DNA from: Cellulosilyticum lentocellum DSM 5427
GTDB taxonomy: Bacteria > Bacillota > Clostridia > Lachnospirales > Cellulosilyticaceae
Assembly (NCBI RefSeq): GCF_000178835.2
Contig: NC_015275.1
Coordinates: forward strand, 3,935,001-3,999,000
Length of the DNA: 64,000 nt
Reading direction: 5' to 3'
The position numbers were made by a program, and so were the translations under genes. This document shows, one piece after another, positions 37,167 to 64,000 of the stretch (positions within the stretch are counted from its first letter, which is position 1; every line of letters starts with the position of its first letter). The notes under the pieces were generated by a model. That model did no database searches. It was not told the origin of the DNA and saw only the letters and a list, made by a program, of their open reading frames with translations.

Positions 37167-37365
37167 GTTAGCTTCTCCTTTTCAGATTTACTCCTTATAT
37201 TATATGTTAACTTTTCTAATATGTTTACTTTATAAGCTTCTATATACTTATTTAACGCTCTTTTTCAACTTATTTCTTAACTACAAATTTTGTGTTTTGC
37301 CTTTACAAACTCTATTTTTAAATTTATAATATTACTATTAATTTTTATATGTTACCAAACACAAT

Positions 37366-37621
37366 GAAAAGGACTAGTACTATTTTTGATGCGTCAAAGC
37401 GAGTGGGGTTGGTGAAAGCCCATACGATAGAAAATACGAAAAATCACCTTGGAGTGGCAGACCGAACCTAAATCTTTGATTGAAGTAGGCTCTGACGGTT
37501 TCCTACCGTTACCGTAAGGAAAGGTATAACGAGCGGCCTTTATAGAAGGCAAATCAGGTGGTACCGCGGAAGATGACTTATAGTGCTCTTTCGTCCTGTT
37601 GATGGATGAAGGAGCTTTTTT
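37366..37621 (+). promoter_or_regulatory. T-box leader of ileS
   Basis: The leader shows the stem I words AAAGGACTAGTAC, GCGAGTGGGG and GGTGAAAGCC, and the GGAGTGGCAGACCGAAC segment. It also has the conserved T-box AGGTGGTACCGCGG (37556-37569) that binds the uncharged tRNA acceptor end. The intrinsic terminator (GCTCTTTCGTCC with GGATGAAGGAGC, then T-run) ends at 37621. An ATC codon in the stretch after CCGAAC is a possible isoleucine specifier, but its placement in the loop was not proven. Shortage of charged tRNA-Ile should allow read-through into ileS. Confidence 0.92.
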
Positions 37622-59317: not shown

Positions 59318-59720
59318 AGAAATTTGTCGGGGGTGTTTATGAGAATTACGTCTGGAGGAAAATGAGGGGGCTTTTCTTTTTTGAAAACACTTCAAGAGAG
59401 TGGCTTTACGCATTATTGTTGATATCTATTTTCTGCACTTCTCGTTTAGGGGCCCCAGCGTTTATGAGATTAATAACGCTTGTAAGAAATGATAGGATAA
59501 GGGCTGCCTGAAGGAATGACTTCGTAGTATTTTTTAGAAGCACTTGGTGAACTTTTTTGATGGGTTTTAGTGCGAGTGTTTGACTGAAAGGAGTTTTCGC
59601 ACGTTCATCAAAAAAATGAGCCTTAGTGCTTCAAAAAATACGGAGCGGAATTCCGGAAGGTAGCCCTTATCCTATCATTTCCGCCCAACAGTATCCTCAT
59701 CAACGACACGACACATTTCT
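59318..59720. repeat. Palindromic dispersed repeat, copy C (most complete)
   Basis: This 403-bp element has imperfect terminal inverted repeats: AGAAATTTGTCG at 59318 and CGACACATTTCT ending at 59720 (11 of 12 match), with weaker similarity continuing inward for about 45 bp. The interior from about 59490 to 59690 is a long imperfect hairpin nearly identical to copy B. No ORF and no clear target-site duplication. The remaining parts of the 59149-59812 gap hold the GH74 promoter and the corA terminator. Confidence 0.75.
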
Positions 59721-59812: not shown

Positions 59813-60748
59813 TTAAAATAATTTTTTTCTAATCATAAATAATGCTAGTAATACTGTCAAAGCAATTGAGAAAGCTACTATTCCCACAAAAGCATATGGG
59901 CTGCCATCTTGGAATGGTACTATAACGTTCATTCCCCAGAAACTAGCAATCATTGTTGGCACAGACATAACAATAGTAATCGAAGTAAGAGTCTTCATCA
60001 CAATATTTAAGTTGTTAGAAATAACAGATGCAAATGCATCCATGGTTCCACTTAAAATGTTACTGTAAATGTTGGCCATCTCAATAGCCTGTTTATTTTC
60101 AATAATAACATCTTCTAGCAAATCTTCATCCTCTGGATATTGCTTTACATTTTCCATTCTCATCATCTTCTCAAGTACAATTTCATTAGAACGAAGTGAT
60201 GTTGTAAAGTATACTAAACTCTTTTCCAAATCAAGAAGCTGAATAAGCTCTTTATTCTTCATAGATTTATGAAGCTCTTGTTCAATCTTATGACTCATAC
60301 GATCGATGTGTCTTAAGTATTGTAAGTAGTAAGACGCATTTTTATAAAGAAGCTGTAATATAAATCTTGTTTTCTTATAGGTAAAGAAACCTCTAATTTT
60401 ACCAGAACTAAAATCCTCTAGTAACTGAATATTTTTTAAGCAAGTTGTAATAATGAACTTATCGCCTAAAATAATAGTCATTGGAATGGTAGCATAATCA
60501 CCCATACCTTCTTCTGTTTCTTTAATAGGTACGTCTACGATAATAACTGTACAGTTATCATCTACTTCAATACGAGCTCTTTCCTCTTCATCCAGTGCGG
60601 ATAAAATATGATTAACTTCAATATTGAAAGCCTCAGAAATTTCGTTAATCTCTTGTGGTGTAGGATTAATTAAATTAATCCATGCGCCTTCTTCGAAGGA
60701 TTCAATAGCTTTTAGCCCTGCATCAAATGTTTTATAAATTTGTTTCAT
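59813..60748 (-). CDS. corA: CorA-family divalent metal ion transporter
   Basis: This is a Mg2+ (or Co2+/Ni2+) channel. The protein (311 residues) has a large cytoplasmic domain, a long stalk helix, two C-terminal membrane helices and the pore signature FWGMNV. The sequence NVIVPFQDGSPYAF forms the loop between helices. The ATG at 60748 is preceded by GGAGG at 10 nt and by a 214-nt leader; an open frame upstream to 60808 lacks a start site of this quality. The leader can form alternative helices around the ribosome site, so translation control by metal is plausible. Confidence 0.93.
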   Translation of the reverse strand: MKQIYKTFDAGLKAIESFEEGAWINLINPTPQEINEISEAFNIEVNHILSALDEEERARIEVDDNCTVIIVDVPIKETEEGMGDYATIPMTIILGDKFIITTCLKNIQLLEDFSSGKIRGFFTYKKTRFILQLLYKNASYYLQYLRHIDRMSHKIEQELHKSMKNKELIQLLDLEKSLVYFTTSLRSNEIVLEKMMRMENVKQYPEDEDLLEDVIIENKQAIEMANIYSNILSGTMDAFASVISNNLNIVMKTLTSITIVMSVPTMIASFWGMNVIVPFQDGSPYAFVGIVAFSIALTVLLALFMIRKKLF

Positions 60749-60962
60749 CTTTTCACATCCTCCACCCCTCACCTTTTTAGTGCAAGTGGTGATTTTGTGA
60801 CAGCACAAAAAGCTACCTTTGCATTAAAACAAGGTGAGTATTCTCATTATTTAATTGATTTTTTAAACGCCTATAACTCGGTCCGACGTCCACGGATACT
60901 CACACTCCCTTTAGTATTTATCATTTTTTATTTTTAATACAAAGACTTTCTTAATTTAAGCC
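60749..60962 (-). promoter_or_regulatory. Candidate switching leader (riboswitch-like) of corA
   Basis: In the minus-strand transcript the segment 60841-60831 (AUACUCACCUU) can pair with the upstream GUGAGUAU (60903-60896, 8 bp) or with the downstream AAGGUGAG (60775-60768, 8 bp). The two helices exclude each other. The downstream partner lies 3-4 nt before the GGAGG of corA, so the second helix would occlude translation start. A TTTTGTG/CACAAAA hairpin lies between. The aptamer side contains GGACGUCGGACCGAG. M-box hallmarks were not recognised, so the class is unknown. Confidence 0.5.
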
Positions 60963-60968
60963 TCTTCT

Positions 60969-60997
60969 ATACTATTTTATTATAAATCACCTGTCAA
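60969..60997 (-). promoter_or_regulatory. Sigma-A promoter of corA
   Basis: TTGACA (60997-60992), a 17-bp spacer and TAGTAT (60974-60969) form a near-ideal promoter. Start of transcription near 60962 gives a leader of about 214 nt. Confidence 0.8.
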
Positions 60998-61002
60998 GCA
61001 AA

Positions 61003-61045
61003 TTTACTTGTAGGAAGCAAAAAAATCTTCGTTCCTACAAGTAAA
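61003..61045. terminator. Hairpin after the HlyD-like gene
   Basis: TTTACTTGTAGGAA pairs perfectly with TTCCTACAAGTAAA over 14 bp, 10 nt past the HlyD-like stop. T-runs are weak on both strands, so it may act as an RNA 3' end stabiliser as well as a terminator. Confidence 0.55.
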
Positions 61046-61054
61046 CCTGAATCA

Positions 61055-62584
61055 TTATTCTTTTAAATTGATTTTTTCTAAAACATAGTACAATATTTTC
61101 TTTTGTTCTGTGATAATGTATGCATTACAGCTCATACCAATTTTTAAATCAGCGGGCTCATTTTTGTAACTGTAAAGATTTACATCTTCTAGACTACCAG
61201 TTATCCAATAACCACTCATTCCTCCTAATTCTGTTTGACTAGCATCTGTAGAAATATTAGTAATATGACCCTTGATCTTGCCATACTCGCGGTAGGAAAG
61301 TGCATCAAATTGATATTCGATTTCCTGTCCAACCTTAAGACCTGCTATATCATTATTGGGAACAAAGATCTCAACCTTATAAATACTATCACTAACGGGA
61401 ATTATTTTCCCAAGTTCTGTTCCCTCCGTTAATAAATCACCTTTATTAATTTCTTGTACTACATTTAAGGTTCCATCTATGGAAGCACGTATAGTACAAT
61501 CATCTATAGCTATCTGTATACCTTCTAGATTCCTCTTATCCGATTGATATTGAACTTCTAGTTCTTGGATTTGATTATCTAACTTGACTAGTTCACCTGT
61601 CTTAAACTGCTCAAGTGCTAATTTTCTTTTGGCTACTTTATTTTTCAGGAGTTCCTCACTAATAATTAGTTTATTATTCTCTATAGTAGATGTGTCTATT
61701 ATAGTTTGATTGGCTTCAATTTTTTCTTCCACTTCTTTAAGTAGTGTTAGCTTTTGTGTATCTAATTGATTTTTGAGTTCCCCTACTTTTTGTTTAGAAG
61801 CTTTTAATTCTTCTTTGGCTACCAAATTCTGTTCATCTAACTCTACATTTAGGTTATAAAGTGTTTTTGCCTCTTCTAATTTACTCTTTAAAGCATCCCT
61901 ATCATACAGATATGTCTCAAACTCTATTGCATAGATACTATCTATATCTTTAAAAATAGACTTTTCCTCATTAACAGATTGTTTAAGCGTTTCTAAGCCT
62001 GCTATATCTTTCTCTGCTTTTTTTATTTTTTCTGTATAGCTTGCCTTATTCAAATTCACCTGTTTTAGGTCTATCTCCTCGTTTTGACTATCGATTATCT
62101 GGCTCCTTTTTAGAGTCTCAAAATCTTGTTCATACTGGATGTACTTTTGTACATAAGCTTCATCATGCTCACTATTAAAGCTATTTACGCTACTTTCAAT
62201 ACTTTTCTTCAAGGTTCTTAGATTGTCTAATATCTTCTCTTGTTCGCTTATCACTTCTTGTAACTGTAATTTCTTTACTTCCTGCTCTGCACAGTCAATT
62301 GTTACTAAGACATCTCCAGCTTTTACTCGTTTTCCCTCTTGCAAACTGCTACTATTAACAACTCCACCTGATTTATTTCTTATAATACTTAATTGTTCAT
62401 TGGGTCTAATCATGCCCCTACCCTTAGATACAATATCAATCTCCCCATAATACATCCATATAATAGCTGCCACAACTATTCCTATCAATAGTCCGATAAA
62501 AATGGCAAAGAAGGGATTAGGTTTGGTCTCATAGAGTTCTTTACTATCTGATAACTCATTTATATTTTTAATAATGGCTTTCAT
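61055..62584 (-). CDS. HlyD/bacteriocin-secretion accessory protein (membrane fusion type)
   Basis: The protein (509 residues) has one N-terminal membrane helix (about 24-45; FFAIFIGLLIGIVVAAIIWM), a first lipoyl half with SGGVVNSSSLQEGKRVKAGD, a very long coiled coil (about 95-350) and a second beta half with GTLNVVQEINKGDLLTEGTE. This is the periplasm-adaptor layout used in Gram-positive peptide exporters. The ATG at 62584 overlaps the ABC gene stop by 1 nt and follows GGGGGAGG, which decides the start over 62629. The partner is the ABC exporter upstream. Confidence 0.9.
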   Translation of the reverse strand: MKAIIKNINELSDSKELYETKPNPFFAIFIGLLIGIVVAAIIWMYYGEIDIVSKGRGMIRPNEQLSIIRNKSGGVVNSSSLQEGKRVKAGDVLVTIDCAEQEVKKLQLQEVISEQEKILDNLRTLKKSIESSVNSFNSEHDEAYVQKYIQYEQDFETLKRSQIIDSQNEEIDLKQVNLNKASYTEKIKKAEKDIAGLETLKQSVNEEKSIFKDIDSIYAIEFETYLYDRDALKSKLEEAKTLYNLNVELDEQNLVAKEELKASKQKVGELKNQLDTQKLTLLKEVEEKIEANQTIIDTSTIENNKLIISEELLKNKVAKRKLALEQFKTGELVKLDNQIQELEVQYQSDKRNLEGIQIAIDDCTIRASIDGTLNVVQEINKGDLLTEGTELGKIIPVSDSIYKVEIFVPNNDIAGLKVGQEIEYQFDALSYREYGKIKGHITNISTDASQTELGGMSGYWITGSLEDVNLYSYKNEPADLKIGMSCNAYIITEQKKILYYVLEKINLKE

Positions 62585-64000
62585 TAGTTTACCTCCCCCA
62601 CTTCTAATCCTGATATTTGTTCTCTCCATAAGGATGCATATCTACCACCTATACTTACTAGTTCCTTATGTGTCCCTGTTTCTACGATTCTTCCTTTATC
62701 TAATACGTAGATGCGATCACATAATTTAATAGTACTTAATCGATGTGCAATAATAATGGTGCTCATGGACCGACTTAGCTGTCTAATAGTAGATTCTATA
62801 GCTGCTTCGGTAATTGAGTCTAAATTACTAGTAGCTTCATCTAAAATTAAAATATTAGGCTTCTTTAATATAGCCCTTGCTATAGCTAGCCTCTGCCTCT
62901 GACCACCTGATAAGTTGGCACCATTCTCATCTAGAAGTGTTTCATATCTTAGTGGAAGTTCATTGATAAAATCATGTGCTTTAGCCATCTTGGATGCTTC
63001 TACTATTTCTTCCATACTGATACGCTCTAAACCTAGGGCTAGATTTTCCATAATTGTCCCACTGAATAAAAAGGTTTCTTGTGGGACATAAGCAATCTTG
63101 GTTCTAAGGACCTCTTTTTTAATATCTAGGATATTATTGTTGTCTATTAATATTTCACCTTCTTCTAACGGGTATAAATTAAGTAATAGTTTGGCTAAAG
63201 TCGTTTTACCCGAACCACTTTCTCCTACTAATGCAATTCTTTCTCCTGGCTTAATCTCTAAATTAATCTCTTCTAACACGTTCTGCCTTTGGCCATATTT
63301 AAAAGTGACATTTTTATAAGAAATTTCTCCCTCTAAATGCTTTGGCTCCATCTTTCTAGATTCTTCTTCTCCATTTTCTATCTCTAAATCTAAGATTTCA
63401 CCTAATCGCTCTGCTGCAACCATAGCTGTTTGAAGCTGAGGTTGTAAATTAATTAAATTTTTAATAGGATTTAAAAAATAAATGAGTAATGAATTATATG
63501 TAATTAAATTACCTACGGACATATCTCCTTGAAGGACTTGATTGGCACCAATCCATAATATGACAACGCCTCCAAGTAATTCTATTAAGCCTTTAAAAAA
63601 GCCTTGCAAGTTCGTCGTAAAACTTAGTTTGAAGATACTTCTTAGTAGCTTAATGAATTTTGTTTCTGTTTCTATCCCTACTTTTTTCTCTGCATTAAAG
63701 ACCTTAACGGTTTGAATACCATTTAGTGACTCCACCATGTACGAAGTAAGTTGTGCGTTATTTTCCATGGTAGCTTTATTGCCCTTCTTCAAGGTTTTAT
63801 TAAAACTCACTACTACCACGCCATAGAGCAGAGCGACCACTAAGGTGATTCCAAACAGTAGCGCATTTTGCATATATAAAATAATGCCTCCTACTATTAC
63901 CATAATCGTGTCGATCATTATGGTTAGCGTTGCTCCTGATATAGCATCTCTTACATGCCCTGCATCTTGAAACCTAGAAATAATCTCACCTACTCTTCTT
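62584..64000 (-). CDS. Peptide/bacteriocin exporting ABC transporter (5' part outside window)
   Basis: The frame is open through the window edge, so at least 472 residues are present and the N-terminus is missing. The first visible words, RRVGEIISRFQDAGHVRDAI, are typical of peptidase (C39)-containing bacteriocin exporters, where a protease domain cuts double-glycine leaders; that domain itself would lie beyond the edge. The rest of the membrane domain is followed by an ATPase with Walker A (GESGSGKTT), LSGGQRQRLAIARA and ILILDEATSNLD. It is translationally coupled to the HlyD-like partner. No precursor peptide gene is visible in the window. Confidence 0.9.
   Translation of the reverse strand, partial: RRVGEIISRFQDAGHVRDAISGATLTIMIDTIMVIVGGIILYMQNALLFGITLVVALLYGVVVVSFNKTLKKGNKATMENNAQLTSYMVESLNGIQTVKVFNAEKKVGIETETKFIKLLRSIFKLSFTTNLQGFFKGLIELLGGVVILWIGANQVLQGDMSVGNLITYNSLLIYFLNPIKNLINLQPQLQTAMVAAERLGEILDLEIENGEEESRKMEPKHLEGEISYKNVTFKYGQRQNVLEEINLEIKPGERIALVGESGSGKTTLAKLLLNLYPLEEGEILIDNNNILDIKKEVLRTKIAYVPQETFLFSGTIMENLALGLERISMEEIVEASKMAKAHDFINELPLRYETLLDENGANLSGGQRQRLAIARAILKKPNILILDEATSNLDSITEAAIESTIRQLSRSMSTIIIAHRLSTIKLCDRIYVLDKGRIVETGTHKELVSIGGRYASLWREQISGLEVGEVN

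Follow-up and report, generated by a model that had tools for sequence, protein, structure and literature searches.

A conserved leader-peptide ORF and a three-arm RNA switch upstream of corA in Cellulosilyticum lentocellum suggest ribosome-based magnesium sensing in clostridia

Introduction

Mg2+ sensing by unstable translation of a leader peptide is already known from enterobacteria. In E. coli and Salmonella, the EPDP motif of MgtL causes ribosomes to drop off at low Mg2+ (PMC11282234). MgtQ contains Asp2 and Glu5 and acts by way of alternative stem-loops to raise the translation of mgtB; bL31 counters this effect (PMC8092293). Translation of corL is inversely related to corA expression (PMC11552253). 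The cases of Mg2+ leader peptides in the literature we searched are enterobacterial and mycobacterial. We found no report of such peptides from Firmicutes in that literature, the coverage of which excluded most subscription journals.

Here we describe the leader of a corA gene from Cellulosilyticum lentocellum DSM 5427, which contains a short upstream ORF (uORF). We analyzed a stretch of 64,000 nucleotides, referred to as the window (contig NC_015275.1, positions 3,935,001 to 3,999,000), from a genome of 4,714,237 bases. The leader resembles that of mgtA in Salmonella and E. coli, where the short uORF mgtL lies in the leader of a Mg2+ importer gene and alternative folds are tied to uORF translation. 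Both peptides have an acidic residue at position 2 and Pro at position 5 (M-E-P-D-P in MgtL, M-D-V-G-P in the window), and several clostridial peptides continue, as MgtL does, with basic residues (L007 MDSSPLPNSKRRKLN, L020 MEAGPSCEYRRLK). The two systems differ in phylum and in transporter family (clostridial CorA and MgtE versus the P-type ATPase MgtA). The clostridial peptides are also poorer in acidic residues and Pro, usually with one acidic residue, and they apparently control how well the transporter gene is translated, through its ribosome site, rather than a demonstrated Rho-dependent termination.

The similarity extends to other leader systems. mgtQ from the Salmonella mgtCBRU operon is a short ORF with Asp2 whose translation is aborted, as we presume for the clostridial uORF, and control is at the level of translation; its alternative stem-loops likewise take in the uORF and the ribosome site of the next gene (PMC8092293). 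In contrast to the clostridial uORF, mgtQ is intergenic, encodes Pro4 and Glu5 in an ORF of 8 codons, and works through four arms that occlude the ribosome site directly, whereas the window leader has three arms, of which arm 3 adjoins the site. corL from E. coli and Salmonella is likewise a uORF that precedes corA; its leader can adopt two competing folds, and the conserved N-terminus of its peptide contains one Pro (PMC11552253). It is described as acting via Rho, and we draw this likeness from its description and claim no homology. Transporter genes are also placed under Mg2+ control by the M-box (RF00380). An M-box and then a uORF are stacked in ten clostridial leaders, whereas the window leader has no M-box. 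The M-box leader of pe20 in M. tuberculosis contains uORFs and can form alternative anti-Shine-Dalgarno pairings. An early Pro is conserved there too, but it occupies position 7, and the mycobacterial peptide is reported to be mycobacteria-specific (PMC12810186). The likeness between the clostridial and enterobacterial peptides is too short to speak for ancestry and may be convergent. By analogy, the clostridial leader peptide probably works like mgtL and mgtQ.

Results

The corA locus and its leader

The gene and the signals that define its leader are as follows.

59813..60748, minus strand: corA, CorA-family Mg2+ transporter, 311 aa (PF01544, E 9.5e-58)
60969..60997, minus strand: sigma-70-type promoter TTGACA-17-TAGTAT, also found in L002, L003, L004 and L083
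60759..60763, minus strand: corA Shine-Dalgarno GGAGG, with 10-nt spacing to the ATG at 60748

The corA product scores under the cut-off of TIGR00383, and the corA relatives at 84-87% identity are from Cellulosilyticum. The initial annotation of this DNA, which was made by reading the sequence, described a near-ideal promoter and a 214-nt leader, and our analysis bears this out. The promoter (60997-60969) matches the consensus at 10/12 positions, and four relatives have an identical promoter at the identical place. A promoter scan performed no better than chance (2 found versus 2.1 expected). The predicted transcription start gives a leader of ~214 nt, running from ~60962 to 60749 on the minus strand, and the conserved promoter position in these four relatives also supports this length. 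Nothing resembling an intrinsic terminator was found in 60600-61200.

We searched positions 60650-61060 with the Rfam 15 covariance models, which include the M-box, NiCo, yybP-ykoY, Na+, Li+ and other classes. No class reached its gathering threshold, and the hits below it were chance-level matches to unrelated families. The same search detects M-boxes in relatives of this leader. The lack of any credible Rfam match agrees with the initial annotation, in which the leader could not be assigned by eye to the M-box or another metal-sensing class.

The leader contains a conserved short ORF

A uORF with its own Shine-Dalgarno region occupies the middle of the leader.

60813..60893, minus strand: leader-peptide uORF, GTG to TAG, 26 codons, MDVGPSYRRLKNQLNNENTHLVLMQR; start, frame and N-terminus are kept in relatives
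60905..60912, minus strand: uORF Shine-Dalgarno region AAAGGGAG; a Shine-Dalgarno-like sequence is kept in homologous leaders
60879..60893, minus strand: N-terminal motif M-[D/E]-x-x-P (MDVGP), conserved

The stretch most conserved between the window leader and those of congeners is GTGGACGTCGGACCGAGTTATAGGCG, which is the uORF start and not one of the switch arms described below. Apart from this coding block and the arms, nothing is conserved among the congener leaders. The uORFs of relatives encode peptides such as MDVGPSYRRCHLELNKKILTLI, MDVGPSYRRSNNQSNKIYLHSFII, MDVGPSYRYTKNQFNKKILILICC and MEAEPSCRWKQTKGIKNTHLILWLK. More distant clostridial corA leaders encode peptides that start MDSGPEHS, MDSDPENR, MDCDPDSS, MDEGPGLY, MESGPSPR or MEGGPSPR, or that read MDSSPLPNSKRRKLN. 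The consensus is M-[D/E]-x-[G>D]-P, often with Ser and basic residues next. M-[D/E]-x-x-P is present in every peptide of the set by selection; position 4 is G in 24/43 and D in 7/43. D2 is the single acidic residue near the start of the window peptide, and the L113 peptide begins MEAEP.

Several features indicate that the conserved block codes for a peptide. Codon 4, which lay outside the selected motif, carries 1.16, 0.72 and 0.04 bits of information at its three positions, and this codon periodicity implies that selection acts on the peptide. GTG and ATG starts are interchangeable among the leaders, and Gly4 and Pro5 are encoded by varied codons. Conservation is limited to the first 5-9 residues; peptide lengths range from 11 to 50 aa and the C-termini are free. 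Pfam and NCBIfam models gave no match to four of the leader peptides, and similarity searches of plasmids and phages with the leader or the peptide matched nothing.

A separate observation concerns codon usage in uORF codons 6-11 of 46 corA leaders (window 60878-60861). Ser codons right after the Pro are AGU in 36/48 cases, compared to 160/928 in corA genes (Fisher p 4e-17). We read this bias as a nucleotide- or codon-level constraint.

The uORF is linked to two families of Mg2+ transporters

A Shine-Dalgarno-preceded M[D/E]xxP uORF occurs in 39/74 clostridial corA leaders, versus a mean of 0.2 in shuffled leaders. Eight of nine control motifs occurred near expectation; the ninth, M[D/E]xxxxP, showed a smaller excess (8). 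Among the genes in the loci we examined, the uORF precedes 45/90 CorA genes and 0/171 other genes, and it was found in 13/28 corA relatives from an independent sample of the order. About half of the corA relatives have no M[D/E]xxP motif. Some of these have near versions (MESDADSSN, MDNDSGGS, MDSGSSYH).

We scanned 196 Clostridia genomes with a pattern for the uORF start, GGNNGTGN5ATGGAYNNNGRNCC. The scan returned 9 sites, while the reversed pattern returned 0 and a base-swapped pattern 3. Six of the 9 sites lie before mgtE; Pfam identified four of these mgtE genes, and similarity to the L166 sequence identified the other two. One site lies before corA and one at a contig edge; the last is a chance intragenic match. 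MDxGP uORFs also precede 3/29 further mgtE genes that we sampled. The mgtE loci with MDxGP leader ORFs are L142, L143, L146, L166, L168, L169, L170, L171 and L174. An M-box is located directly upstream of the uORF at 7/40 loci tested, nearly all of them corA, and at 3/9 pattern loci (mgtE). The only M-box in the C. lentocellum genome is in front of mgtE. This distribution gives good support to the view that the peptide occurs specifically with genes for Mg2+ transporters, from the two unrelated families corA and mgtE.

CorA proteins from Methanosarcina (L008, L009, L010, L012, L033) are 60-62% identical to the clostridial CorA of the window, which suggests horizontal transfer. The M[D/E]xxP uORF is absent from these five loci.

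Two mutually exclusive helices frame the uORF

Three arms of the leader can form two alternative helices.

60896..60903, minus strand: switch arm 1, GTGAGTAT, between the uORF Shine-Dalgarno and the start codon
60831..60841, minus strand: switch arm 2, ATACTCACCTT, within uORF codons 18-21
60768..60775, minus strand: switch arm 3, AAGGTGAG, immediately 5' of the corA Shine-Dalgarno

In helix 1:2, GTGAGTAT (60903-60896) pairs exactly with ATACTCAC (60841-60834). In helix 2:3, CTCACCTT (60838-60831), which overlaps the partner used in helix 1:2, pairs exactly with AAGGTGAG (60775-60768). The two mutually exclusive 8-bp helices noted in the initial annotation are thus genuine, and any 8/8 Watson-Crick switch of this type arose in 2/500 dinucleotide shuffles of the window leader. 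When the ribosome-site regions were held fixed and the middle region was shuffled with the arms left free, the window switch had p ~0.007. As had also been noted, the third segment abuts the corA ribosome site: the end of arm 3 lies 20 nt upstream of the corA AUG, and the arm adjoins GGAGG without covering it. Arms 1 and 2 frame the short ORF, a point that the annotation did not contain.

Both helices are kept in eight related corA leaders, with compensatory changes in helix 2:3, so the proposed switch layout before a metal transporter gene stands as a conserved switch. Of the two outcomes that the annotation named as refuting, neither a clean Rfam match nor a loss of the helices in homologous leaders was observed. 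We evaluated the switch in individual leaders with every register free and a shuffled middle region as the null, a procedure less biased than a hand-registered alignment. It was significant in 7/8 family members (the window, p 0.007; L003, L004, L083, L108, L110 and L113) and borderline in L002 (p 0.06). Significant switches with arms of different sequence were also found in corA leaders from Peptococcaceae (L014, L021, L026). The leaders are interrelated, so a p value combined over them is unfit as a formal probability. The geometry is constant: arm 1 falls within ~-17 to -1 relative to the uORF start, arm 2 lies in the second half of the uORF, and arm 3 ends 16-21 nt before the corA AUG across the switch-bearing leaders. 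Most leaders outside the eight-member family and the Peptococcaceae group are missing the same three-arm layout.

The covariation expected of both helices was found in one of them. Helix 2:3 is 92% paired across the eight family leaders, and 8 cells are changed on both sides. Its covariation score, from an alignment that was registered by hand and leans towards structure, is 0.527 versus 0.297 in shuffles and was reached by 0/500 of them; slid registers gave at most 0.18. Helix 1:2 is 90% paired in the family and is conserved rather than covarying. Its covariation does not rise above shuffles, and RNAalifold found the helix in the family leaders without compensatory pairs. In folding predictions, the free leader adopts helix 1:2 in the congeners tested, and removing the uORF start region yields helix 2:3 in these leaders, the window included.

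The switch in L014, L021 and L026 is a separate one, AGTGAGTCAG / CTGACTCACT / GGTGAGTCA, arranged around an MDLGP uORF in the geometry seen in Cellulosilyticum. Another layout was read by eye from the sequences of the L062, L067 and L077 corA leaders. There, the uORF end carries an arm that competes for a GGTAATAG-type sequence that is otherwise paired with CTATTATTAAATTGAGG over the corA Shine-Dalgarno. This layout also suits a model in which full translation closes the site; the predicted folds do not show clean switching.

A model for translation-coupled control of corA

The evidence is good for the leader peptide, for its association with Mg2+ transport and for the three-arm switch. We consider it reasonably probable that the corA leader acts as a translation-coupled attenuator based on this peptide, with the ribosome that translates it as the likely sensor. 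For ribosome drop-off in response to Mg2+ and for the ON/OFF direction, our model follows the enterobacterial systems. The early acidic-x-x-proline motif would destabilize ribosomes when Mg2+ is low, as with MgtL and MgtQ. Drop-off within the first uORF codons would then leave arm 1 free to pair with arm 2, and the resulting helix 1:2 would keep arm 3 open and allow high translation of corA. When Mg2+ is ample, ribosomes would translate the uORF to its end and continue to load on arm 1, and arm 2 would pair with arm 3. Helix 2:3 would lie inside the 30S landing area next to the corA ribosome site and reduce corA translation. The positions of the arms suggest this coupling of the alternative folds to uORF translation.

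Equilibrium folding with simulated ribosome footprints gave no consistent change in accessibility of the corA ribosome site between leaders, and for this reason the ON/OFF direction rests on analogy. A single acidic residue is a weak destabilizing signal in E. coli. The window peptide has D2 only, compared to E2-P3-D4-P5 in MgtL, which argues against a drop-off like that of MgtL. A bL31 gene is present in the genome.

These results suggest that clostridia use the translating ribosome as a magnesium gauge. More broadly, we lean towards the view that Mg2+-sensing leader peptides of the form M-[D/E]-x-[G/D]-P are widespread in Clostridia, with ribosome stability as the sensor, in front of both corA and mgtE and sometimes together with an M-box. 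Such peptides would be the Gram-positive equivalent of the mgtL system in enterobacteria, whether by convergence or by ancient origin. The sequence evidence extends the idea of sensing by unstable translation across Clostridia, to two unrelated transporter families and to some leaders behind an M-box. If this view is right, the ribosome would be a general bacterial Mg2+ gauge, aptamer and ribosome sensors would be stacked within one leader, and a short diagnostic motif would make the idea testable in many genomes, including those of gut commensals. It would also account for the possible regulation of corA leaders that have no M-box.

Alternative explanations

We weighed four other readings of the leader. 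The initial annotation proposed a new metal-binding riboswitch, and a pair of competing helices upstream of a metal transporter gene is in keeping with it. We regard this as highly improbable and do not uphold the proposal: no Rfam class was found at the gathering threshold, the conserved core is a coding sequence with codon periodicity and free third positions rather than an aptamer, and the leader is otherwise unconserved beyond the arms. It is just as improbable that the uORF encodes a small protein with a role in trans, for instance at the transporter, and that the helices are incidental. MgtR and MgtU are known from Mg2+ operons, but conservation restricted to the first 5-9 residues, variable lengths (11-50 aa) and C-termini, and the covariation of helix 2:3 all argue against such a role here.

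The remaining readings retain a regulatory uORF. Its translation might open the corA ribosome site, by coupling or by melting helix 2:3, and thereby raise corA expression. Arm 2 lies within the uORF, so a late ribosome would melt helix 2:3, and in folding predictions for L048, L050, L066, L069 and L073, the corA Shine-Dalgarno becomes much more accessible once the uORF end is blocked. We find this opposite sign rather unlikely, since efficient leader translation goes with lower transporter expression in mgtL, mgtQ and corL, and an importer whose expression rises with Mg2+ would be illogical. The attenuator might instead report another translation variable that merely correlates with Mg2+, such as charging of Pro or Ser tRNAs, EF-P or elongation rate. 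Pro5 is invariant in the set, the AGU preference after it (36/48) hints at a codon-level signal, and mgtP from the Salmonella mgt operon senses charged tRNA-Pro (PMC8092293). This reading is unlikely given that position 2 is always D or E and position 4 often G or D, that most peptides contain a single Pro encoded by freely variable codons, and that the uORF is associated with two families of Mg2+ transporters as well as with M-boxes.

Other elements in the window

Just downstream of corA (59480-59690) lies a near-palindromic element of ~200 nt with 32-nt arms that are 88% complementary. The genome contains ~38 full or partial copies, including eight full-length copies at 93-100% identity. Judged from these copies, the element belongs to a large MITE-like repeat family. 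A T-box leader (RF00230, 123 bits) is located at window positions 37355-37601. Finally, a perfect-looking hairpin at 61000-61050, between an HlyD-like gene (61055-62629) and the corA promoter, is probably the terminator of the HlyD-like gene.
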